From: a virus
Length of the DNA stretch: 35,874 nt
IMG/VR virus record: IMGVR_UViG_3300008050_000132
Span: 1-35,874 of that record
Direction: 5' to 3' (one strand)
How positions within the stretch are numbered: position 1 is the first letter of the stretch; every line of letters starts with the position of its first letter. Both the position numbers and the translations under genes were made by a program. Shown in pieces: positions 1,182 to 28,683 of the stretch. The notes beneath the pieces are model-generated. The model searched no databases and had not been told where the DNA came from. It saw nothing but the letters and a program-made list of their open reading frames with translations.

Positions 1182-2021
1182 GTGAATATCATTGGTTTAG
1201 GAGCCGCGGGCTGCAATATCGCAGATGGCTTCGCTAAATACCCGCAATACAACGTTTATAAGCTCGATGTGGGTCTTCCCAAGAAGAAAGGAAACTTTGC
1301 TTTGCCGGAAGTCGTAGCAATCGAGGAATATGACAGCAAGACATTAAACTTTCGATCGTTTTTCAAGGATCTGCGAAAGGGCGATGATGTGCTGTTTGTT
1401 GTCTGTGGCGCCGGCAAGGTGTCAGCAGCAACGTTACGCGTTTTAGAAAAGCTGAAGAAGTGCGATGTCACGGTGCTGTACATCAGACCGGATCGCTCTT
1501 TGCTCAGCAAGCAGGCTCTCATGCACGAACGCGTGGTCTTTAATGTACTACAGGAATACGCGAGATCTGGAGTGTTTGAGAGGACTTACCTCGTCGATAA
1601 TAAAGAAGTTGAGAAAACACTTGACAATGTTTCGGTTCTAGGGTATTATGAACGTATAAATGAATTAATCGTTGATACGATCCACATGACGAACGTTTTT
1701 CTGAACACAAAGACGGTTTATAACACGCCGGCAACTTCGCTAGCAACAGCCCGCGTTTCGACCTTCGGCGTGGTGGATATTGAAAAAAATGAAGAAAAGT
1801 TGTTTTTCCCCCTTGACACCATCAACGAAAGATGTTATATTTATGCTATCAATAAAGAACAACTCGAAACGGACGGAGAACTTTTTACCGCTTTGCGCAA
1901 TCGTAGCGCAGAAAAGGTGGAGGATGAAACCATTGTATCAGTGCGGATTCACTCTACCGACTATGACAACAACTACGGCTATCTGATAGCCAACACCTCT
2001 GAAATACAACAGGAGATTTAA
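1182..2021 (+). CDS. FtsZ/tubulin-like GTPase homolog (divergent)
   Basis: 279 residues, GTG start with the Shine-Dalgarno AGGTGA at 1173-1178. The N terminus NIIGLGAAGCNIADGF matches the first nucleotide-binding loop of FtsZ/tubulin (G-x-G-G-x-G-x-N). The predicted phosphate-loop region reads VVCGAGKVSAAT after a hydrophobic strand, in place of the canonical GGGTGTG. It is followed by a helix and the strand VTVLYIRPD, as in the FtsZ fold. Further on, RVVFNVLQEYARSGVFE and the strand YLVDN resemble the segment leading into the core helix. At 279 residues it is shorter than bacterial FtsZ (about 380) and phage PhuZ (about 315), and it lacks a clear C-terminal tail. Known phage tubulins centre or transport genomes in infected cells, but the degenerate loop makes polymerisation or GTP hydrolysis uncertain. 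The family call is inference from motifs. Confidence 0.6.
   Translation: MNIIGLGAAGCNIADGFAKYPQYNVYKLDVGLPKKKGNFALPEVVAIEEYDSKTLNFRSFFKDLRKGDDVLFVVCGAGKVSAATLRVLEKLKKCDVTVLYIRPDRSLLSKQALMHERVVFNVLQEYARSGVFERTYLVDNKEVEKTLDNVSVLGYYERINELIVDTIHMTNVFLNTKTVYNTPATSLATARVSTFGVVDIEKNEEKLFFPLDTINERCYIYAINKEQLETDGELFTALRNRSAEKVEDETIVSVRIHSTDYDNNYGYLIANTSEIQQEI
1621..1649 (+). promoter_or_regulatory. sigma-70-like promoter candidate inside the FtsZ-like gene
   Basis: TTGACA at 1621-1626 and TATTAT at 1644-1649 with a 17-base spacer, on the coding strand of the upstream gene. It could drive the small gene at 2021 and the SSB gene. It is one of eight sites of this type in the window; being inside a coding region it could be a coincidence. 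Confidence 0.45.
1813..1841 (+). promoter_or_regulatory. sigma-70-like promoter candidate inside the FtsZ-like gene
   Basis: TTGACA at 1813-1818, a 17-base spacer, and TATATT at 1836-1841. It lies about 180 bases before the gene at 2021 and follows the similar site at 1621-1649, so the two may be tandem promoters for the 2021-3151 genes. Confidence 0.45.
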
Positions 2022-2377: not shown

Positions 2378-3151
2378 ATGGCGATTGATCTATCAAAAAT
2401 GAAGGCTAAGCTGGATGCCCTTCAAAACAAAGACTCCGGCGACAAGAAGTTTTGGCGACCCCAAGACGGCGAACAAGCGGTACGAATCGTGCCCACTGCA
2501 GATGGCGACCCCTTCCGCGAGTATTTCTTCCACTATAATGTGGGAAATAACCGTGGTTTCCTGTGCCCCAAGCGCAATTACGGTGATGAATGTCCCGTAT
2601 GCGAGTTTGCTTCCCAATTGTGGAAGGAGGGCTCAGCTAAGGATGATGACGAAGCTAAGAAGATGGCTAAGGGGCTTTTTGCCCGTCAGCGCTTCTTCAG
2701 CCCGGTTCTCATCCGAGGCGAGGAAGATCTGGGTGTCCGAGCATGGGGCTATGGCAAGATGGCTTACGAGTCCTTGCTTGGTCTGGTTCTCAATCCCGAA
2801 TACGGTGATATCACCGATCCGGCATCGGGTACCGATCTGGTTCTGACATACGGTAAGCCTTCGGGTGCGTCGTTCCCACAGACGAAGCTGACCCCGCGCC
2901 GTCGTTCCTCTCCTCTCTGCGATGAGGCAGTAGGTGGCGACGAACGCTGTGCGGAGCTTCTCGACAACATTCCCGACTTCGACACTCTCTTTGAGCGTAA
3001 GTCCGCTACTGATGTAGAGGCTATGCTTGATGAGTACCTCGCGGGCGATCAAAGTGCAGAGACTTCCTCGTCTGAGACTACGAAGTACACCGCGCCGACC
3101 ACTACGACTGATCCGGTCGACGCCGCCTTTGACGAGTTGATGGGAGCGTAA
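2378..3151 (+). CDS. single-stranded DNA-binding protein, T4 gp32-like
   Basis: 257 residues. It should coat ssDNA at the replication fork and during recombination. The N terminus is basic and helical (LSKMKAKLDALQ), like the gp32 cooperativity region. Next comes a core with a Zn-binding pattern FLCPKRNYGDECPVCEF near residues 67-83 (Cys-x8-Cys-x2-Cys; a nearby His such as in FFHYNV could be the fourth ligand). The C-terminal 50 residues are Asp/Ser/Thr-rich and end in DAAFDELMGA, the acidic tail that in gp32 recruits other replication proteins. T4 gp32 is about 300 residues, so this is slightly short. It has its own promoter (2288-2316) and terminator (3168-3199), which suits a protein needed in large amounts. 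Confidence 0.85.
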   Translation: MAIDLSKMKAKLDALQNKDSGDKKFWRPQDGEQAVRIVPTADGDPFREYFFHYNVGNNRGFLCPKRNYGDECPVCEFASQLWKEGSAKDDDEAKKMAKGLFARQRFFSPVLIRGEEDLGVRAWGYGKMAYESLLGLVLNPEYGDITDPASGTDLVLTYGKPSGASFPQTKLTPRRRSSPLCDEAVGGDERCAELLDNIPDFDTLFERKSATDVEAMLDEYLAGDQSAETSSSETTKYTAPTTTTDPVDAAFDELMGA

Positions 3152-5407: not shown

Positions 5408-5437
5408 AGTATCACAACTCATGACTAGGAATTGAGA

Positions 5438-6568
5438 ATGGCAAGAGCTAAGAAATCAAATGGGGCTGGAAAGCTCTCCATCACGCAGATGCGGGATATG
5501 ATCAACAAGAAGGCTGGTCAGAACGTAGCCCACGATCTAAACGCAGCGAACCCAACGGAGGTAAAGGAATGGATTCCTACAGGCTCCCGGTGGCTGGACT
5601 CTATTATTTGCCGCGGTCGCATCGCTGGCATTCCCATTGGCAAGGTCACAGAGATTGCCGGTTTAGAATCCACAGGAAAGAGTTACATGGCAGCACAGGT
5701 TGCCGCTAACGCTCAAGCCATGGGCATTGACGTTATCTACTTTGATAGTGAGTCGGCTATCGATCCCGCGTTCCTTGAGCGCACCGGCTGCGATCTTAAT
5801 AACCTTTTGTATGTGCAGGCAACTTCGGTTGAGTTTGTTCTGGAGACTATTGAAGAGCTATTGGGATCGAACGATAACCGCATGCTGTTTATCTGGGACT
5901 CTCTGGCTCTCACGCCATCGGTTTCAGACGTTGAGGGAGACTTCAATCCGCTATCCTCGATGGCAGTGAAGGCTCGCATACTCGCAAAGGGTATGTCCAA
6001 GCTGACGGTTCCTATCGCCAACTCTCAGAGCACGTTCCTTGTGCTAAACCAGCTTAAGACCAACATCACGCGCTCGCCTTCAGAGGCTATGACTACTCCG
6101 TACATGACGCCCGGCGGCAAGGCAATGATCTATGCCTATTCGATGCGCATCTGGCTCACCGGTCGAAAGGCGAAGGCAAGCTTCGTTCTTGATGACAAGG
6201 GTTTCCGTATCGGATCTGAAGTTAAGGTAAAGCTTGAGAAGTCTCGTTTCGGGACTCAGGGTCGCCAGTGTAACTTCCGTATTTTATGGGGCGATGACAT
6301 TGGTGTTCAGGACGAAGAAAGTTGGTTCGATGCCATCGGCGGCTCAGATCGCCTTGCCCGCTCCGGAGCATGGTATACCTTGCTTGACCCTCTCGGTGAA
6401 CCGCTTGGCGCGAAGTTTCAGGCATCCAAATGGGTTGAGCGCCTGCAGGACGAAGAATTCCGCAAGACCGTTATGGAGATCATGGATGACGAAGTTATCA
6501 TGAAGTTTCACAACCGTGTCGGAGCCGCATCAGATTTTTATGAAGAAAGTGAAGAAAAGAATGAATAA
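5438..6568 (+). CDS. RecA/UvsX-type recombinase
   Basis: 376 residues from ATG 5438; TAGGA at 5426-5430 supports this over the in-frame TTG at 5432. It should form ATP-dependent filaments on ssDNA and catalyse strand exchange in recombination-dependent replication. Walker A is GLESTGKS, preceded by GIPIGKVTEI as in RecA. The strand DVIYFDSESAIDP corresponds to the RecA 'YIDTEHALDP' segment. Walker B is LFIWDSLALT. Loop 2 carries STFLVLNQLK, with TPGGKAMIYAYSMRIWL following, as in RecA/UvsX. The C terminus is acidic (YEESEEKNE). The family is clear; whether it is closer to RecA or UvsX needs an alignment. Its gp32-like SSB partner is at 2378. Confidence 0.92.
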   Translation: MARAKKSNGAGKLSITQMRDMINKKAGQNVAHDLNAANPTEVKEWIPTGSRWLDSIICRGRIAGIPIGKVTEIAGLESTGKSYMAAQVAANAQAMGIDVIYFDSESAIDPAFLERTGCDLNNLLYVQATSVEFVLETIEELLGSNDNRMLFIWDSLALTPSVSDVEGDFNPLSSMAVKARILAKGMSKLTVPIANSQSTFLVLNQLKTNITRSPSEAMTTPYMTPGGKAMIYAYSMRIWLTGRKAKASFVLDDKGFRIGSEVKVKLEKSRFGTQGRQCNFRILWGDDIGVQDEESWFDAIGGSDRLARSGAWYTLLDPLGEPLGAKFQASKWVERLQDEEFRKTVMEIMDDEVIMKFHNRVGAASDFYEESEEKNE

Positions 6569-14083: not shown

Positions 14084-17000
14084 ATGACCACTCGCGCCAA
14101 GCCCGAGATTCCGTTCGTAAACCTTCACGCTCATAGCGTGGCGGGTTCTATTTTTGATGCTCTTGGGTACCCTCAAGAACATATGGATTTTGCATACCAG
14201 AATGGCTGCAATGCCATGGCACTGACGGATCATGGAAACATGAATGGCTTGGCGCATCAGGTGTTACACGCCAAGAAGATGCAGGCAGAGGGCAAAGACT
14301 TTAAGCCCATCTTCGGCGTGGAGGCTTACTTCATTCCTTCTATCAGCGATTGGCGCACCGGCTATGAAGATGCGCGCACGAAGGCTAAGGGCAAGAAGAA
14401 AGAGTCTCAATCAGGAACGACGATTGAAGACGAGGATGCTAGCAAAAAGGTGGTGAAGGATATCCTTCGTCAGCGCGCTCACCTCATTCTGGTGGCACAA
14501 AACCAGACTGGGCTTAACAACCTTTTCAAGCTTATCTCCGAGAGTTATAAGCAGGAGAACTTCTACCGCTACCCGCGCATGGATTATGAGCTACTGGCAA
14601 AGTACTCAGAAGGCGTCATTGCAGCTTCTGCCTGTCTCGGCGGCGTTTACGCTCAGGACTTCTGGCATAGCTGGGAGACAGACGAAGATGGCAAGCGCAC
14701 TTTTGATGAGGCACAAGCTCTCGGTCGCATGTGCGAAACTACTCGCCGCATGCAAGCCATCTTCGGCGACCGCTGGTATGGCGAACTACAGTGGAACAGC
14801 GTACCGGAGCAACATATGCTGAATCAGTGTATCATTGAGATGCACCGCGAGTTCGGCATTGAGTTGATTTCCACAGCAGACAGCCACTATCCTTCGCCGC
14901 AAGCGTGGAAGGATCGCGAGTTGTATAAGCGTCTAGGCTGGCTGGGCAAGTCCAAGCCTGATTATGAGAGTAACGAATTGCCTATTGATGTAGATGAGAT
15001 CGGCTATGAACTGTATCCCAAGAACGGCGATCAGATGTGGGAGGCTTATAAGAAGTACTCTGCTGGTGCCGGGATTGAGTACGATGACGATCTGGTCCTT
15101 ACTTCAATTAAGAACGGCTACGACATCGCCCATAGTCGTATTGATTCCTTCTTTCCCGACAACACGGTCAGGTTGCCTGACTTCGTTGTTCCCGCGGGAC
15201 TGACAGCAACCGAGGCACTTATTAAGCTTAGCCACGAAGGGCTAAAGACTCTCGGCTTCCACGAAAACGAGGATTATATCGATCGCTTGCAGAACGAGCT
15301 TAAGGTCATCGATGACAGAGGCTTCAGTAAGTACTTCCTTACAATGAAGGCTATCGCAGACAAGGCATCAGCGAAGATGCTCACCGGTCCCGGTCGCGGT
15401 TCGGCTGCTGGCTCGCTGGTGGCGTATGCTTTGGGCATCACACAGGTTGATCCTATTAAGTATGGGCTTCTGTTCTCTCGCTTCTTACGCTCTGACGCTA
15501 CGGACTACCCGGATATCGATTATGATGTGTCGGACCCGATGGCGCTCAAGGAAGAGCTTATTGCTGATTGGGGAGAGGACACTGTTGCTCCCATTTCCAA
15601 CTGGAACACACTGCAGCTTAAGTCGCTCATTAAAGACATCGCAAAGTTCTATGGGATCCCCTTCACGGAGGTCAACCCGGTTACTAGCGCGATGATGTTT
15701 GAGGCAACTGGACCAGCGAAGCAGCGCCACGGCATCAAGGCTGGTGTATATGTTCCCACCTTTGACGAGGTGATGGAGTTTAGTGGGTCGCTACAGGCTT
15801 TCTTGGCTAAGTACCCACACGTTAAGACTCACGTTGAGGCGCTCTACGGGCAGGTTCGGTCATGTTCGCGTCATGCCGGCGGAGTTGTGGTCGCGGAGAA
15901 CCTTGATCAATACATGCCGCTTATCAATTCTGGTGGTATCCGACAGACGCCATGGGCAGAGGGTCAGAACGTCCGACACCTTGAGCCCATGGGCTTCATT
16001 AAGTTTGATATCCTTGGGCTGTCAACACTGCGAATGATTGAGGGTGCCATCCGTCACATTCTCCAGCGCCATGCTGGAATCGCTGAGCCGACCTTTGAGC
16101 AGATCAGAGAGTTTTACAACATTAACCTTCACCCGGACCAAATCGACTTCGGAGATCAGGAAGTATATGAGAACATTTTTCATGCCGGCAAGTGGGGAGG
16201 AATCTTCCAGTTCGCAGAGAACGGAGCCCAGCAATTCTGCATCAGGGCTAAGCCGACTAGCATTATTGATATCTCTGCTGTTACTTCTATCTTCCGCCCC
16301 GGTCCATTGAGTGCCGGAGTCGATAAAGACTATGTAGAAGCGAAGCAATCGCCACAGTACATCAAGTACCTGCACCCGATCGTTGAGGAGATTACTCAGG
16401 AGACATACGGCTTCCTGATTTTCCAAGAACAGATCGCGTTGCTGGCTCATAAGTTGGGCAAAGACTTGACACTCGATGAGGCTAATCTTCTTCGCAAGCT
16501 ACTTACTAAGAAGGGAACAGGCAAGAATGATAAGAAAGCGGCTATTCATAAAAAGTTTATTCAAGGTTGTGAAGAGAAGGGCATCAAGGTCTCGGACGCT
16601 GAAGGACTGTGGGATACTTTTGAGTACTTTTCTGGTTATGGCTTTAACAAGTCACACGCAGTGTCGTACTCGGTCCTCTCGTTCCAGTGCGCGTGGCTGA
16701 TGAACTACTTCCCGTCCGAGTGGGTTGCATCCTTCTTGGACAAGGAGCCTGAGTCTCGCAAGGAGAAGGCAATCAACATTGCCAAGACCTCCGGGTTCGC
16801 GATTGCTCCGCTGGATATCAACAAGTCGGGCACAGTCTGGGAGATTAGTTCAGACGGCAAGACTCTGGTACAGCCACTCACTTCGGTGAAGGGTCTTGGT
16901 GAATCAGCTATCGCTCAGGTGATTGCCAACCGTCCGTTTGAAGCCATTGAAGACTTCTTATTCAACGAGAACATCACATACTCTAAGCTCAACAAGAAGG

Positions 17001-17536
17001 CACTGGATGTTCTAATCCGCTGTCAGGCTTTGAACGCTTTGATGGATGACCGCTTCACTGGGCTCAAACACTTCTGGTCTGCTGTTGCTGTCGACCGTCC
17101 GAAGAACCGCAAGAAGTTTGCGGAGAATATCGAACTGTACTCCCCAGAAGGAGACTTCACAGAAGAGGAATTGATTCAGTATCAGGCTGATCTTACAGGA
17201 GTATTCCCGTTCGACTTGGTTTTGAGCAACCGGGTTCGCCAACGCCTAGAGGAGAGGTTCGTGCCGCCACTTGGTGAGTTCGACCCGGATCTGCAGGTGG
17301 CATGGTTCGTGCCGCGCAAGATTACTTCGCGGAAGACCAAGAACGGAAAGATATATTGGGTTGTTGAGGTTATCGATTCATCGAACAAGACAACCAAGAT
17401 CAAGTGCTGGGGTGTACGACCTGAGCGCGGAGACAATGTTCAGATCAATCGCCCGTACATGGCGAAGCTGGACTACGATCCTAAGTGGGGATTCAGCACT
17501 CGCTCGATTCACCACAACTTTAAACTATTGGGGTAA
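14084..17536 (+). CDS. dnaE: DNA polymerase III alpha subunit (DnaE-like, with PHP domain)
   Basis: 1150 residues, near the 1160 of bacterial DnaE. The PHP domain is at the N terminus with its metal ligands apparently intact: VNLHAHSVAG (His15, His17), ALTDHGNM, FGVEAYF, SACLGG and TADSHYP. This suggests active proofreading, unlike E. coli DnaE. The C-family polymerase domain has GPGRGSAAGSLVAY, the catalytic pair in YPDIDYDVSD, and the third acidic residue in IKFDILGLSTLRM. The thumb/finger regions GIFQFAENGAQQF, FRPGPL and YGFNKSHAVSYS match DnaE. A C-terminal OB-fold-like part follows, and I see no clear clamp-binding motif. No clamp or clamp loader is seen in the window. ATG 14084 lies 6 bases after the small upstream gene. 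Confidence 0.95.
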   Translation: MTTRAKPEIPFVNLHAHSVAGSIFDALGYPQEHMDFAYQNGCNAMALTDHGNMNGLAHQVLHAKKMQAEGKDFKPIFGVEAYFIPSISDWRTGYEDARTKAKGKKKESQSGTTIEDEDASKKVVKDILRQRAHLILVAQNQTGLNNLFKLISESYKQENFYRYPRMDYELLAKYSEGVIAASACLGGVYAQDFWHSWETDEDGKRTFDEAQALGRMCETTRRMQAIFGDRWYGELQWNSVPEQHMLNQCIIEMHREFGIELISTADSHYPSPQAWKDRELYKRLGWLGKSKPDYESNELPIDVDEIGYELYPKNGDQMWEAYKKYSAGAGIEYDDDLVLTSIKNGYDIAHSRIDSFFPDNTVRLPDFVVPAGLTATEALIKLSHEGLKTLGFHENEDYIDRLQNELKVIDDRGFSKYFLTMKAIADKASAKMLTGPGRGSAAGSLVAYALGITQVDPIKYGLLFSRFLRSDATDYPDIDYDVSDPMALKEELIADWGEDTVAPISNWNTLQLKSLIKDIAKFYGIPFTEVNPVTSAMMFEATGPAKQRHGIKAGVYVPTFDEVMEFSGSLQAFLAKYPHVKTHVEALYGQVRSCSRHAGGVVVAENLDQYMPLINSGGIRQTPWAEGQNVRHLEPMGFIKFDILGLSTLRMIEGAIRHILQRHAGIAEPTFEQIREFYNINLHPDQIDFGDQEVYENIFHAGKWGGIFQFAENGAQQFCIRAKPTSIIDISAVTSIFRPGPLSAGVDKDYVEAKQSPQYIKYLHPIVEEITQETYGFLIFQEQIALLAHKLGKDLTLDEANLLRKLLTKKGTGKNDKKAAIHKKFIQGCEEKGIKVSDAEGLWDTFEYFSGYGFNKSHAVSYSVLSFQCAWLMNYFPSEWVASFLDKEPESRKEKAINIAKTSGFAIAPLDINKSGTVWEISSDGKTLVQPLTSVKGLGESAIAQVIANRPFEAIEDFLFNENITYSKLNKKALDVLIRCQALNALMDDRFTGLKHFWSAVAVDRPKNRKKFAENIELYSPEGDFTEEELIQYQADLTGVFPFDLVLSNRVRQRLEERFVPPLGEFDPDLQVAWFVPRKITSRKTKNGKIYWVVEVIDSSNKTTKIKCWGVRPERGDNVQINRPYMAKLDYDPKWGFSTRSIHHNFKLLG

Positions 17537-18007: not shown

Positions 18008-18628
18008 ATGAAACATATTATTAACGCTAGTCCTCTGTTGAAGGACTACGATCTCCGAGATAACTTCCCTGTTGTCATCAGAGTCAGAAACTTCAACGAG
18101 GTCACGGCGCGAGACTTTACGCTACAGATGGCGAAGGCTCACAACACTGGGCAACCAGTTGTCCCTGTTATTATCGACAGTTACGGCGGTGCAGTGTACA
18201 GTCTTATGTCTATGATTTCAGATGTACGTAGCTCCAAGCTACCAGTCGCGACGGTTATCCAAGGCAAGGCAATGTCTTGCGGAGCTATCTTCTCGACCTT
18301 CGGCACCAAGGGCATGAGGTATATGGATCCTCACGCTACGGTAATGATCCATGACGTGTCAAGCGGAGCATGGGGAAAGATCGAAGAGATCAAAGCAGAC
18401 GCCAAGGAAGCCGAGAGACTACAGAAGAAGGTCTATCACATGATGGCTGCGAACTGTGGCAAGAGCAAGAACTACTTCTTGAAATTGATTCACGACAAGG
18501 GGCATGCCGACTGGTATCTTGAACCAGACGAGTGCCTTGAGCATGGACTAATCGACCACGTTGACATGCCACAGCTTAATGTCGACATTAACGTAGAGAT
18601 TACGTTTGGTAGCCAAAACCAACAATAA
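18008..18628 (+). CDS. ClpP-like serine protease, copy 1
   Basis: 206 residues. The fold is the ClpP/crotonase type: PVIIDSYGGAVYSLMSM corresponds to the 'SPGG' oxyanion segment, with DSYGG instead of NSPGG. The nucleophile is Ser90 in AMSCGAI, the base is His115 in MIHDVSSG, and the acid is likely Asp168 in ADWYLEPDE, aligned with the ClpP 'RDxFLS' Asp. All three triad residues are present. Length is normal for ClpP (about 200). Membership of the ClpP class does not tell whether it works with an unfoldase, and no ClpX or ClpA is seen here. Phages use such proteins for head maturation or for changing host proteolysis. A second copy is at 23685. Confidence 0.88.
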   Translation: MKHIINASPLLKDYDLRDNFPVVIRVRNFNEVTARDFTLQMAKAHNTGQPVVPVIIDSYGGAVYSLMSMISDVRSSKLPVATVIQGKAMSCGAIFSTFGTKGMRYMDPHATVMIHDVSSGAWGKIEEIKADAKEAERLQKKVYHMMAANCGKSKNYFLKLIHDKGHADWYLEPDECLEHGLIDHVDMPQLNVDINVEITFGSQNQQ

Positions 18629-20500: not shown

Positions 20501-20766
20501 ACAGGAAGCAGCGACGAGCAGCCGAGGCTCTCGCAAAGAAGGCGGAAGACACAGAAGATCCGCTAACAGCCAAAACAGCATTGTTCAGCAAGCTACCAGA
20601 AGAGTGCTTGATGTGTGAGCTACCATTTGATAAGACCGACAACGCGATGGTAACATCGTGGAGCGTAGTAGTCCGAGAAGATAAAGGAGTTGTCAGGCTA
20701 TACTGTCCTGACTGCTGGTCTGCTGCGCAAAAAGTTGTTGAAAAATATAAGAACGGAGAACTATAA
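20497..20766 (+). CDS. small zinc-ribbon-like hypothetical protein
   Basis: 89 residues, GTG start overlapping the methylase stop (GTGA). The N terminus MNRKQRRAAEALAKK is a basic helix seen at the start of many phage proteins. Then come two CxxC pairs, ECLMCELPF and LYCPDCWSAA, separated by about 40 residues with a beta hairpin between (VTSWSVVVREDKGVVRL). The pairs probably bind one Zn ion. Function unknown. The stop overlaps the next start (TAATG). Confidence 0.75.
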   Translation: MNRKQRRAAEALAKKAEDTEDPLTAKTALFSKLPEECLMCELPFDKTDNAMVTSWSVVVREDKGVVRLYCPDCWSAAQKVVEKYKNGEL

Positions 20767-21821
20767 TGAGGACAAAGGTAAGCCTTTGTTATGATGATGT
20801 CCTGCTGGTACCACAGTTTTCGGATATCCGCAGCCGCAAAGAGATTGATATTGGCACCACCTTGGGCACCGGCACCCGGGCGCTTGAACTGGGCATGCCG
20901 ATCATCTCTTCGCCGATGGATACCGTTACTGGACCAGCCATGGCAGAGGTCATGAACGTGTTCGGCGGTTTGGGTATTATCCATCGCTATTGTACGATTG
21001 ACGATCAGGTAAAGATGGTTCGGGCAGCAAAGCAGAATCGCTACCACTCCACCAAAAACGATATTCATGTCAATGTTGGCGCCGCTGTTGGGGTGACCGA
21101 GGGTTTCGAACAGCGCGCCATAGCCTTGCACCAAGCCGGCGTTGATTTCCTTTGTATTGACGTCGCCCACGGTCACCACACTCTGGTGCGTGAAGCAATC
21201 GAAACCCTCCGGTGTCTTATCGGCGGCGACAAACATATCATGGCTGGCAACGTCGCAACTCTTGAGGGAGTTAATGATCTGGCAGACTGGGGAGCAGACT
21301 CTGTACGCTGTAACATCGGTGGAGGATCCATCTGCTCGACAAGGATTCAGACCGGTCACGGCATGCCCGGGCTACAAACTATCATTGAGTGTTCTGAGAC
21401 AGACAGAGATGTGTCGATTATTGCTGACGGTGGAATCCGAAATAGCGGAGACATTGTTAAGGCGCTAGCCGCCGGCGCTGACTGTGTGATGATCGGCTCT
21501 CTCCTCTCTGCTACCACAGAGTCTCCGGGCGCAATCCAATTTGTCGCAGGAGATCGGTTCAAGACCTATCGTGGCATGGCATCGGAAGAAGCCCAGCAAG
21601 ACTGGCGAGGGAAGGCTTCGTCTCTAGAGGGCATTTCAACAATCATTCCTTATAAGGGTTCGGTGACACGCATCTTGGAGCAACTAGATAACGGCATCCG
21701 CAGCGGGTTTTCGTATTCAGGCTCCCGTACTTTGACAGAACTGCAGTCACGCGCCCGGTTTACGCGGCAAACGGCATCGGGCATTTCAGAATCGAAGACG
21801 CATATTCTGGAGAAGAAGTAG
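20766..21821 (+). CDS. IMP dehydrogenase / GMP reductase family enzyme, without CBS domains
   Basis: 351 residues. The TIM-barrel signature is clear: [13 protein letters not shown] at the start, [12 protein letters not shown], the catalytic loop [15 protein letters not shown] with Cys190, and the phosphate site [21 protein letters not shown]. The two CBS domains of bacterial IMPDH are absent. In the flap, the IMPDH Arg-Tyr motif is not seen (I read [17 protein letters not shown] before IIPYKGSV), which points toward a GMP-reductase-like reaction (GMP to IMP) instead of IMP to XMP. I cannot settle this by eye. Either way it would shift the purine pool. TAATG overlap upstream and TAGTG overlap downstream place it in the operon. 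Confidence 0.88.
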
Positions 21822-23307: not shown

Positions 23308-23685
23308 ATGGAATATGCATCGTTAGGTCTAGCAGGACTTATCGGATATATGATGGGGTTAACAGCTTCGAACCTAATGTCTTTAGGGAAGATGGGAGCC
23401 TTGGTTGAGAAAATAGGATTGCAAGCTTTAAGGCTAATGGTTACGATCTCGGAAGATGTCGAGTTTCTTCGTGCCATGAAGCATAAAATGTCACAGGAGA
23501 CTGGAGACACAGCCACTGCAATCAGACAGAAGAACATGGATGATTATGAGTTCAAGCGCTGGAAGAAGTCAACGCTAGAGAGCTTTTTGTCTGCTTACCC
23601 AGAGGTGTTCCGGAAGCGTCAAGCGCCGTTCACAGACTGGGAGGGCGCGCTAAACCATTTAGAAAATAACAAAGGAAAGCTGTAA
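23308..23685 (+). CDS. hypothetical protein with N-terminal hydrophobic segment
   Basis: 125 residues; ATG 23308 follows GGAGTTGAG. Residues about 4-22 are hydrophobic and glycine-containing (ASLGLAGLIGYMMGLTAS) and could be a membrane helix. The rest is helical and charged, with FKRWKKSTLESFLSAYPEVF. No signal-peptide cleavage site. No family recognised. Its stop overlaps the ClpP start (TAATG). Confidence 0.7.
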   Translation: MEYASLGLAGLIGYMMGLTASNLMSLGKMGALVEKIGLQALRLMVTISEDVEFLRAMKHKMSQETGDTATAIRQKNMDDYEFKRWKKSTLESFLSAYPEVFRKRQAPFTDWEGALNHLENNKGKL

Positions 23686-24329
23686 TGTCAAAGCCAAAGA
23701 AAGAGAACCCAGTAGAAGAAACCTCAGATGATGACACTCAGGAAGCGCTCACGCCCGAGCAGCTAGCCGCGGCACTTGGCTTGGAAGCCGATGAAGATAT
23801 GCGCATCGTGGGTCTTTACGGCGATATCGATGAGCGCAAATCCCGAGAAACGCTTAGCGGATTATTGGTTTTACACAATTCTTCCATGCGCGAAATAGAC
23901 GGAGAAGAAGTGTGGGAGCCGTTGGAGTTTATTATCTCAACGTACGGTGGCAGCGCAGACGATATGTTTGCGCTTTATGATGTCATGCGCATGGTCCAAA
24001 AGGACTGCGAAATCCATACATTCGGTCTTGGAAAAGTAATGTCAGCCGGCGTGCTGTTGCTTGCTGCTGGCACAAAGGGCAAGAGAAGGATCGGAGAAAA
24101 CTGTCGCGTCATGATTCACTCAGTCATTGCCGGCAACCATGGTAACCTGCATAACCTTGAGAACGAGATGGACGAGATTAGAAACTCTCAGGAGAACTAT
24201 GTGGCTGCGCTTGTTAAAGAAACCAACCTGACAAAGCGTACGCTAAAGAAGCTGCTTGAGAGAAAGGTAAATGTATATCTATCTGCTGCAGAAGCAGTAG
24301 AATACGGCATTGCTGATATAATTATCTAA
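23685..24329 (+). CDS. ClpP-like serine protease, copy 2, with Ser-His-Asn triad
   Basis: 214 residues; ATG overlaps the upstream stop. An acidic N-terminal extension of about 40 residues precedes the fold. Motifs: ISTYGGSADDM (oxyanion segment), Ser120 in KVMSAGVLLLAAG, His145 in MIHSVIAG. At the position of the catalytic Asp, where ClpP has 'ERDxFLS', this protein has KVNVYLSAAEAVEYGIAD, so the acid is Asn196. Ser-His-Asn triads are known in some ClpP proteins, such as Listeria ClpP1, and reduce activity until partnered. It is clearly different from copy 1 at 18008, so the two are old paralogs or separate acquisitions. In this position (before lysis genes) it might be a head-maturation protease. 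Confidence 0.87.
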   Translation: MSKPKKENPVEETSDDDTQEALTPEQLAAALGLEADEDMRIVGLYGDIDERKSRETLSGLLVLHNSSMREIDGEEVWEPLEFIISTYGGSADDMFALYDVMRMVQKDCEIHTFGLGKVMSAGVLLLAAGTKGKRRIGENCRVMIHSVIAGNHGNLHNLENEMDEIRNSQENYVAALVKETNLTKRTLKKLLERKVNVYLSAAEAVEYGIADIII

Positions 24330-27099: not shown

Positions 27100-28683
27100 T
27101 TGTCTAAACACTATTGTAAAGGCACAGATTTAAACAAGAAGATTCTAACCGGTGTTAACCTGCTGGCAGATTACACAGCAGCAACGCTAGGACCGCGAGG
27201 AAGGAATGTCATCCTGAAGACGCCCAGCGGCACTCCAGTGATTACAAAGGATGGCGTAACCGTCGCCAACCATATCGATCTAGAGGATCCCTTTGAGAAT
27301 GTAGGGGTGCAGATCATTAAGCAGGCGTCAGCACAGACTAACGCTTCTGCTGGTGATGGTACGACTACCGCAACAGTGTTGGCTCGCGCTATCCTCAACC
27401 AGTCGCAGCGATACATCGCATCAGGCATGTCACCCATCGAACTTAATCGAGGCATGGCTTTGGCAGTTGACGGCATCGTTGAGAACCTCAAGACAATGGC
27501 ACAGCCCATCAAGAGCAAAGAAGACATTGAGCATGTTGCGTCCATCTCGGCTAACAACGACCGCACCCTAGGGAATCTGGTGGCTACGGCAGTTGACAGT
27601 GTGGGCAAGGACGGCTCCGTAACGGTTGAGGAGGCACGCAGTTTGGAGACTAGTCTCGATCTGATTGAGGGTTTCCGCTTTGCTTCGGGTTACACGGCTG
27701 CAGCGTTTGTTACCGACAAGCGCCGCAACTGCGTACGCTACGAGAACCCACTGATTATGATAACAGATTCTAAGATTGAAAGGGTGGACGAGATCTTGCC
27801 AGCTTTGGAGATTGCCGATCGATCGAGCCGCCCACTTATTATTGTTGCGGAAGAGATAGAGGGTCAGGCTCTCGCGGCACTGATCATGAACGCAGTACGC
27901 AGGCAAGAAATGAACTCAGGCATTAAGGTGGCTGCAGTCAAGGCTCCCCGGTACGGTGAGGATCGGCGCAATATTATGCAAGACTTGGCGCTGTCTGTCG
28001 GTGCTACGTTCTTGGCAGTTGTCGATGGCGTTGCCCCGAGTGATGTGACCATTGAGCACATGGGCTCGTCCAAGACGATTGAGATCACCAAAGGTGGCAC
28101 AACAATCGTTGGAGGTACTGGTGACTTCGCCAAGGTCGAAGAGAAGATCGAGGATCTTAAAGCAGAACTGTCAGAAACAGAATCTCTTTATGAGTGCGAG
28201 AAGATTCAAGACCGCATCACGCGCCTAGCTAGTGGCGTTGCTGTGATTCGTGTTGGCGCCGCCACCGAGATCGAAATGACAGAGAAGCGCCACCGCATTG
28301 AGGATGCGCTTGAGGCGGTACGTTCCGCGCAGCAGGAAGGCATTGTGCCCGGTGGCGGCGTGGCTCTGATTCGTGCCGCAGACGGGCTGTCGTTGGACGC
28401 TCCGAATGAGGAGCAGCGCTGTGGCATAGAAGTAATTAAGAACTCAGTCTTCGCCCCTCTTCGCCAGATGGCAATGAACGCCGGCGAGAGCCCCGACTTG
28501 ATTTGCGAGAAGGTGCTGGCATCTTCGTATGAGATGGGTTGGGACTTCTACGCTGGCAGCATGGCAAAGATGGTTGAGACGGGAGTTATTGATCCCGTAA
28601 AGGTGACTCGCTGCGCTCTACAAAACGCAGTTTCTGCCGCCGGTACCTTGTTAACAACTAGTCACGCTATTGTTGGTGTTTAA
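27100..28683 (+). CDS. groEL: GroEL-like chaperonin (Cpn60)
   Basis: 527 residues from TTG 27100, supported by GAGAGGTG at 27088-27095 and by the match of SKHYCKGTDLNKKIL to the chaperonin start. ATP-binding and hydrolysis motifs are intact: TLGPRGRNVIL, TKDGVTVA, GDGTTTATVLARAI, and VGAATEIEM with IEDALEAVRSA (equivalent of Asp398). The apical part carries EEIEGQALAALIMN. The C terminus ends in AIVGV without the GGM repeats of bacterial GroEL, and it is about 20 residues shorter than E. coli GroEL (548). It would fold phage proteins. No groES is next to it; the candidate partner is at 11805. Confidence 0.95.
   Translation: MSKHYCKGTDLNKKILTGVNLLADYTAATLGPRGRNVILKTPSGTPVITKDGVTVANHIDLEDPFENVGVQIIKQASAQTNASAGDGTTTATVLARAILNQSQRYIASGMSPIELNRGMALAVDGIVENLKTMAQPIKSKEDIEHVASISANNDRTLGNLVATAVDSVGKDGSVTVEEARSLETSLDLIEGFRFASGYTAAAFVTDKRRNCVRYENPLIMITDSKIERVDEILPALEIADRSSRPLIIVAEEIEGQALAALIMNAVRRQEMNSGIKVAAVKAPRYGEDRRNIMQDLALSVGATFLAVVDGVAPSDVTIEHMGSSKTIEITKGGTTIVGGTGDFAKVEEKIEDLKAELSETESLYECEKIQDRITRLASGVAVIRVGAATEIEMTEKRHRIEDALEAVRSAQQEGIVPGGGVALIRAADGLSLDAPNEEQRCGIEVIKNSVFAPLRQMAMNAGESPDLICEKVLASSYEMGWDFYAGSMAKMVETGVIDPVKVTRCALQNAVSAAGTLLTTSHAIVGV

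Follow-up and report, generated by a model that had tools for sequence, protein, structure and literature searches.

The window, a 35,874-nucleotide stretch of viral DNA (IMG/VR record IMGVR_UViG_3300008050_000132), contains a gene at positions 1182–2021 (+ strand) for a 279-residue protein that we judge, from its predicted structure, to represent a new, reduced branch of the tubulin superfamily. The open reading frame, supported by structure prediction (AlphaFold), fold comparison (Foldseek and VIA) and dN/dS, runs from a GTG start to a TAA stop. It is preceded by a likely ribosome-binding site, GAGGTG (1172–1177, +), which was read directly from the sequence and overlaps the stop codon (1171–1173) of the upstream ORF. 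The dN/dS of the protein against its nearest relatives is ~0.09–0.11; synonymous changes greatly outnumber replacement changes, and the product is therefore under strong purifying selection. With such a start, stop and upstream GAGGTG, and a ratio of ~0.1, the 279-residue ORF proposed in a preliminary description of this DNA is real. That description also placed the gene at the head of a short operon with a single-strand DNA-binding protein (SSB) gene. The gene does not head the operon, because an ORF at 103–1173 ends eight bases upstream of position 1182. The SSB gene (gp32-type; 2378–3151, +; PF08804 E 2e-13, phrog_1192 E 9e-26) is indeed nearby, but is the second gene downstream, after a gene for an 85-residue WYL_2-like protein (Sm-like SH3 barrel; 2021–2278, +) whose start overlaps the preceding stop as TAATG.

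AlphaFold2, run on the window protein without templates and with 78 relatives, gave a model (pLDDT 94.1, pTM 0.92) in which the two-domain tubulin/FtsZ fold is complete, with its core strands, H7 and second domain. The elements, named from their order along the model, are S1-H1-S2, a short S3 and S4-H4-S5-H5-S6-H6-H7, followed in the second domain by S7-S8-H10-S9-S10; H2 and H3 are short helices or are missing. TubZ and FtsZ ranked first in a Foldseek search of the PDB (E ~1e-11 over the whole length), and all of the best 50 matches listed belonged to the tubulin superfamily. PhuZ was absent from the matches listed, which is not evidence against a relation. The closest solved fold is that of CetZ (3zid, 4b45), with a VIA-align Z of 24.0 and 3.0 Å over 257 residues for 3zid; Z was 22.3 for TubZ and ~21 for both FtsZ and microtubule tubulin. 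Among viral models, the best match was an ‘FtsZ Cell division GTPase’ from an uncultured Caudovirales phage (E 2e-12). The outcome was the same for L315, a deep-branching relative 37% identical to the window protein, the model of which (pLDDT 95.2) matched FtsZ in Foldseek (E 6e-11) and CetZ with a Z of 22.5. The structure prediction and fold search suggested in the preliminary description thus bear out its FtsZ/tubulin-like assignment (Foldseek E 1e-11, Z 24), and by predicted fold the reduced family is a member of the tubulin/FtsZ superfamily. The opposite outcome named there, a plain Rossmann dehydrogenase devoid of H7 and the second domain, did not arise. A Rossmann-type dehydrogenase or other nucleotide-binding fold resembling FtsZ at T1 only is extremely improbable: weak TrkA_N and dehydrogenase matches were obtained in the Pfam and PDB sequence searches, but two independent high-confidence models match tubulin/FtsZ in both domains (Z 20–24), and the fold search rejects a plain Rossmann enzyme as far as prediction reaches.

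When the window protein was searched as a single sequence, Pfam, PHROGs, NCBIfam and PDB sequences yielded matches at chance level only. The protein does not match Pfam Tubulin (PF00091), for which two of 18 relatives gave weak matches (best E 0.0064, 17 bits against a curated cut-off of 33), or NCBIfam ftsZ (TIGR00065). The PhuZ profile phrog_4733, which detects phiKZ PhuZ itself at 5e-118, matched neither the window protein nor 17 relatives, and profile searches of PDB sequences with two alignments (A1 and A4) returned nothing significant, with FtsZ at E 3.3. A profile–profile comparison, also suggested in the preliminary description, fell short of significance: hhalign gave E values of 0.014–0.32 against E. 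coli FtsZ, PhuZ and the L142 family (a second phage tubulin, described below), so the homology of the reduced family rests on structure, not on profiles. Because sequence methods remain below significance, the family is missing from the family databases searched.

Relatives are found in uncultured phage genomes, mostly marine. A search of IMG/VR with the window protein alone found 27 loci, whereas a search with an alignment of 18 members found at least 576 confirmed relatives; using divergent members as queries extended the set to more distant relatives. Clustering at 75% identity left 96 non-redundant members of 262–300 residues, to which the conservation counts below refer. The contigs carrying the gene reach 203 kb, the window being a 35.9-kb fragment. 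Three different members were used as tblastn queries against 50,697 named phage records and found no relative there, and a search of GTDB genome contigs with alignment A1 gave 25 pattern matches and no relatives, and thus pointed to no host.

The first nucleotide-binding loop recognized in the preliminary description, NIIGLGAAGCNIADGF, lies at the T1 position. The T1 loop reads GLGAAGCN (residues 5–12; 1194–1217, +), GLGxAGCNIA in the family, with G7 present in 96/96 members, G5 in 94/96 and G10 in 85/96. The phosphate loop, correctly described as changed to CGAGKVSAA, occupies the T4 position (CGAGKVSA, residues 75–82; 1404–1427, +); the family consensus is GGSGxISG, and GGGTG[ST] occurs in none of the 96 members. 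The accompanying statement that known phage tubulins keep this loop is right in part and fails for PhuZ of phiKZ (L233:9931–10914), which reads MGGASGSTIG rather than GGGTG[ST]G and whose GTPase site has been described as competent (PMC3678025). Since an active PhuZ also has an altered T4, the T4 change alone is no proof of lost activity.

Residues expected at the base end of the pocket are retained. Profile alignment with E. coli FtsZ and the L142 family places N140 (1599–1601, +; 89/96) at the conserved T6 asparagine of FtsZ, and YERIN (residues 156–160; 1647–1661, +) at the start of H7, with N160 in 91/96 members and an aromatic residue or histidine at position 156 in 89/96. N140 and N160 are both present in 88/96. 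We take N140, N160 and position 156 to be the equivalents of tubulin N206, N228 and Y224, respectively, the residues that hold the guanine base in tubulin. Judging from this conservation, a guanine nucleotide would be bound through T1, N140 and N160. A few deep relatives (L308, L314, L315, L316 and L322) have lost N140 or both asparagines and have a further altered T4; they retain the QEYARS motif considered below, and L315 retains the fold. The loss of pocket features is thus graded across the family, and because some deep relatives (e.g. L314, L316 and L322) have no pocket asparagine, nucleotide binding is not essential family-wide.

The loss of T7 and H8, unmentioned in the preliminary description, is a stronger argument than the change in T4. 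Active sites in tubulin, FtsZ and PhuZ are shared between neighbouring subunits, one subunit supplying its T7 loop and the base of its H8 to complete the site of the next (PMC3678025). The corresponding H7–S7 loop of the window protein (residues 174–190; 1701–1751, +; 175–191 as read from the model) forms no helix in either model, and residues 174–190 include no acidic residue. Across the family (n=96), this stretch has no strictly conserved acid: the most acidic column, 188, which adjoins S7, is acidic in 60/96 members and the remaining columns in no more than 45. By the alignment and both models, the reduced family therefore lacks the T7 catalytic acid and helix H8. Given the T4 change and this loss, GTP would probably not be hydrolysed, and dynamic head-to-tail protofilaments would not form; a subunit of this kind could present a partner with its nucleotide face, but would not be expected to activate hydrolysis. 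The preliminary description had allowed for either a new branch of phage tubulin or a nucleotide-sensing relative that no longer polymerises; the absence of T7 and H8 favours the latter, and both readings stand. It is decidedly unlikely that the protein is an active cytomotive GTPase of the PhuZ or TubZ kind that has an unusual active site and forms filaments to position or segregate phage DNA. The full tubulin fold, the conserved base contacts, the variability of T4 in PhuZ and the many sites conserved under selection would all fit such a protein, but the T7 acid, H8, a PhuZ-like tail with its acidic ‘knuckle’ and much of the longitudinal interface are missing. The window protein ends seven residues past its last strand, with no C-terminal tail.

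Five residues are invariant in the 96 members (G7, L85, Q124, R128 and S129), and three of these belong to QEYARSG of helix H5 (residues 124–130; 1551–1571, +), where they are kept even in members that have lost the pocket residues. QEYARS does not correspond to any known nucleotide motif; it may mark a partner surface.

The reduced family is placed in the tubulin/FtsZ superfamily by fold and lies outside the PhuZ, TubZ, FtsZ and CetZ families. The window protein shares with CetZ, the closest in structure, a Y-x-x-I-N at the start of H7, but CetZ has SGGTGS at T4 and a T7 acid, both absent from the reduced protein; the two are 16% identical, with 342 ordered residues in CetZ and 279 residues in the window protein. 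TubZ, from Bacillus plasmids and the Clostridium phage c-st, provided the best Foldseek match (4ei7, E 1.1e-11; Z 22 over 274–276 residues) and is likewise borne by phages and plasmids. It has ~400 residues and forms filaments thought to serve partition (PMC3678025), whereas the reduced gene adjoins replication genes, and the active-site loops T4 and T7 of TubZ and CetZ are not retained in the reduced family. PhuZ (phiKZ TubZ) is similarly phage-encoded, with a tubulin fold and an altered T4, but has a T7 catalytic aspartate and a filament-stabilising C-terminal tail (PMC3678025), neither of which is found in the reduced protein; no sequence match links the two. FtsZ resembles the window protein in fold (Foldseek E ~1e-11, Z ~21) and, by profile alignment, has its T6 asparagine and H7 in register with it, but the T4 and T7 motifs, H8 and the C-terminal peptide of FtsZ are missing. 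Two phage tubulins were known in a 2013 paper (PMC3678025), and the count of two kinds was unchanged in a jumbo-phage survey of 2021 (PMC7824862); no description of the reduced family was found in the open-licence papers searched.

A second, canonical tubulin occurs in viruses of the same kind and sometimes in the same genome. The L142 protein is an FtsZ/CetZ-like GTPase of 364 residues (L142:1027–2121, − strand; contig IMGVR_UViG_3300025131_009739) encoded in a 166-kb relative that also carries the reduced gene. Unlike the reduced protein, it keeps GGGGGTGS and FDSKDLE and is detectable by sequence as a relative of CetZ and FtsZ (2e-9), with a weak match, below the cut-off, to NCBIfam ftsZ. 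Its family comprises 107 confirmed contigs from uncultured marine phages, is absent from named phage records and matches nothing in PHROGs except, weakly, phrog_17961 (unknown function). Could the reduced protein be the non-catalytic partner of this GTPase, in an alpha/beta-type pair? Seven of the contigs searched carry both families, and the L142 family keeps the motifs of a catalytic subunit (GGGTGS in 36/36 and a T7-like FD[ST]KDLE in 29/36 aligned members). Most contigs carry one family, however: among contigs of more than 150 kb found via the reduced family, the canonical gene is present in one of six, and in the reverse direction four of ten contigs above 140 kb found via the L142 family have the reduced gene. 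The two genes are not adjacent, lying 83 kb apart in G005. Such a partnership is thus highly unlikely, and obligate pairing with a second tubulin is ruled out by the co-occurrence counts.

The position of the reduced gene is nearly fixed. Among non-redundant loci whose flanking DNA was long enough to be tested, 63/70 have a family-A DNA polymerase (PolA) gene within 1.5 kb upstream; it overlaps the reduced gene or is no more than 20 bases away in 42 of these 63, and is somewhat further off in six of the remaining seven loci. A gp32-type SSB gene lies within 1.5 kb downstream in 68/71 loci, with a WYL_2-like small gene in between in 24/71, and UvsX lies beyond SSB in 29/29; in the window, this UvsX/RecA-like recombinase is encoded at 5432–6568 (+; phrog_97 E 2e-53, PF00154 E 2e-35). 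The linkage to PolA, SSB and UvsX holds for relatives down to ~30% identity. The window is unusual among relatives in that the polymerase is replaced by the ORF at 103–1173 (+; 356 residues, no Pfam or PHROG match), and a DnaE-type DNA polymerase III alpha subunit of 1150 residues is encoded elsewhere (14084–17536, +). With no family-A polymerase beside the tubulin-like gene and a DnaE at a distance, this lineage may have replaced its replicative polymerase by another. The upstream polymerase of the relatives has ~400 residues (e.g. L118:4356–5549), with PF00476 covering mainly its C-terminal part, and may, from this coverage, have no exonuclease domain. The window also encodes two different ClpP-like or head-maturation-protease-like proteins (18008–18628 and 23685–24329, +), an IMP dehydrogenase (guanine nucleotide synthesis; 20766–21821, +) and a GroEL-type chaperonin (27100–28683, +); HSP60 is often carried by jumbo phages with tubulin (PMC7824862).

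This neighbourhood indirectly suggests a role in replication, and the near-fixed place between the polymerase and SSB genes points to the replication fork, but an operon may also include early phage genes of other sorts. Our best explanation, which we regard as having an even chance of being right, is that the reduced tubulin binds a guanine nucleotide without hydrolysing GTP and serves as a scaffold in replication. It would work at or close to the fork, as a fixed scaffold or assembly factor that is possibly gated by the nucleotide. The fuller proposal, that a tubulin-fold protein deprived of hydrolysis and dynamic filaments now forms a nucleotide-gated core component of the DNA replication machinery in a large group of uncultured phages, is possible but doubtful.

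The main rival, itself unlikely, is by analogy a poison of host FtsZ: a tubulin-fold monomer that keeps its nucleotide-bearing face intact but has no T7 face of its own would bind the T7 face of FtsZ, cap or strip its filaments and block host division in the course of infection. In keeping with such a cap, conservation is higher on the T1 side of the protein (S1-T1-H1, 0.70) than in the T7 region (0.39) or H10 (0.48). Host-takeover genes are usually fast-evolving and scattered, and a linkage to PolA, SSB and UvsX that persists to ~30% identity would be unusual for one; the likeness to FtsZ is, moreover, one of fold alone. ARC3, an FtsZ chimera of plant chloroplast division, inhibits chloroplast FtsZ assembly, acting as a regulator of tubulin-family descent instead of forming filaments (PMC5855766); it is an analogy only, ARC3 being eukaryotic and fused to a MORN domain. 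A phage protein in complex with FtsZ is known from T7, namely Gp0.4 (PMC13423816). The replication scaffold is preferred to the FtsZ cap because of the gene order.

The reduced family is, thus, a further and very abundant branch of phage tubulins, unseen by Pfam, PHROGs and NCBIfam, and its link is to a replication operon, not to partition or a spindle. It also offers a well-defined target in a group of viruses frequent in sea water, of which the collection searched contains no cultured member. Having lost the elements on which tubulin dynamics depend, the family can be used to test whether the fold serves without GTP hydrolysis. The evidence suggests that a filament protein has been converted into a fixed component of phage replication; if true, the tubulin fold would be serving at the replication fork, a role not described before.
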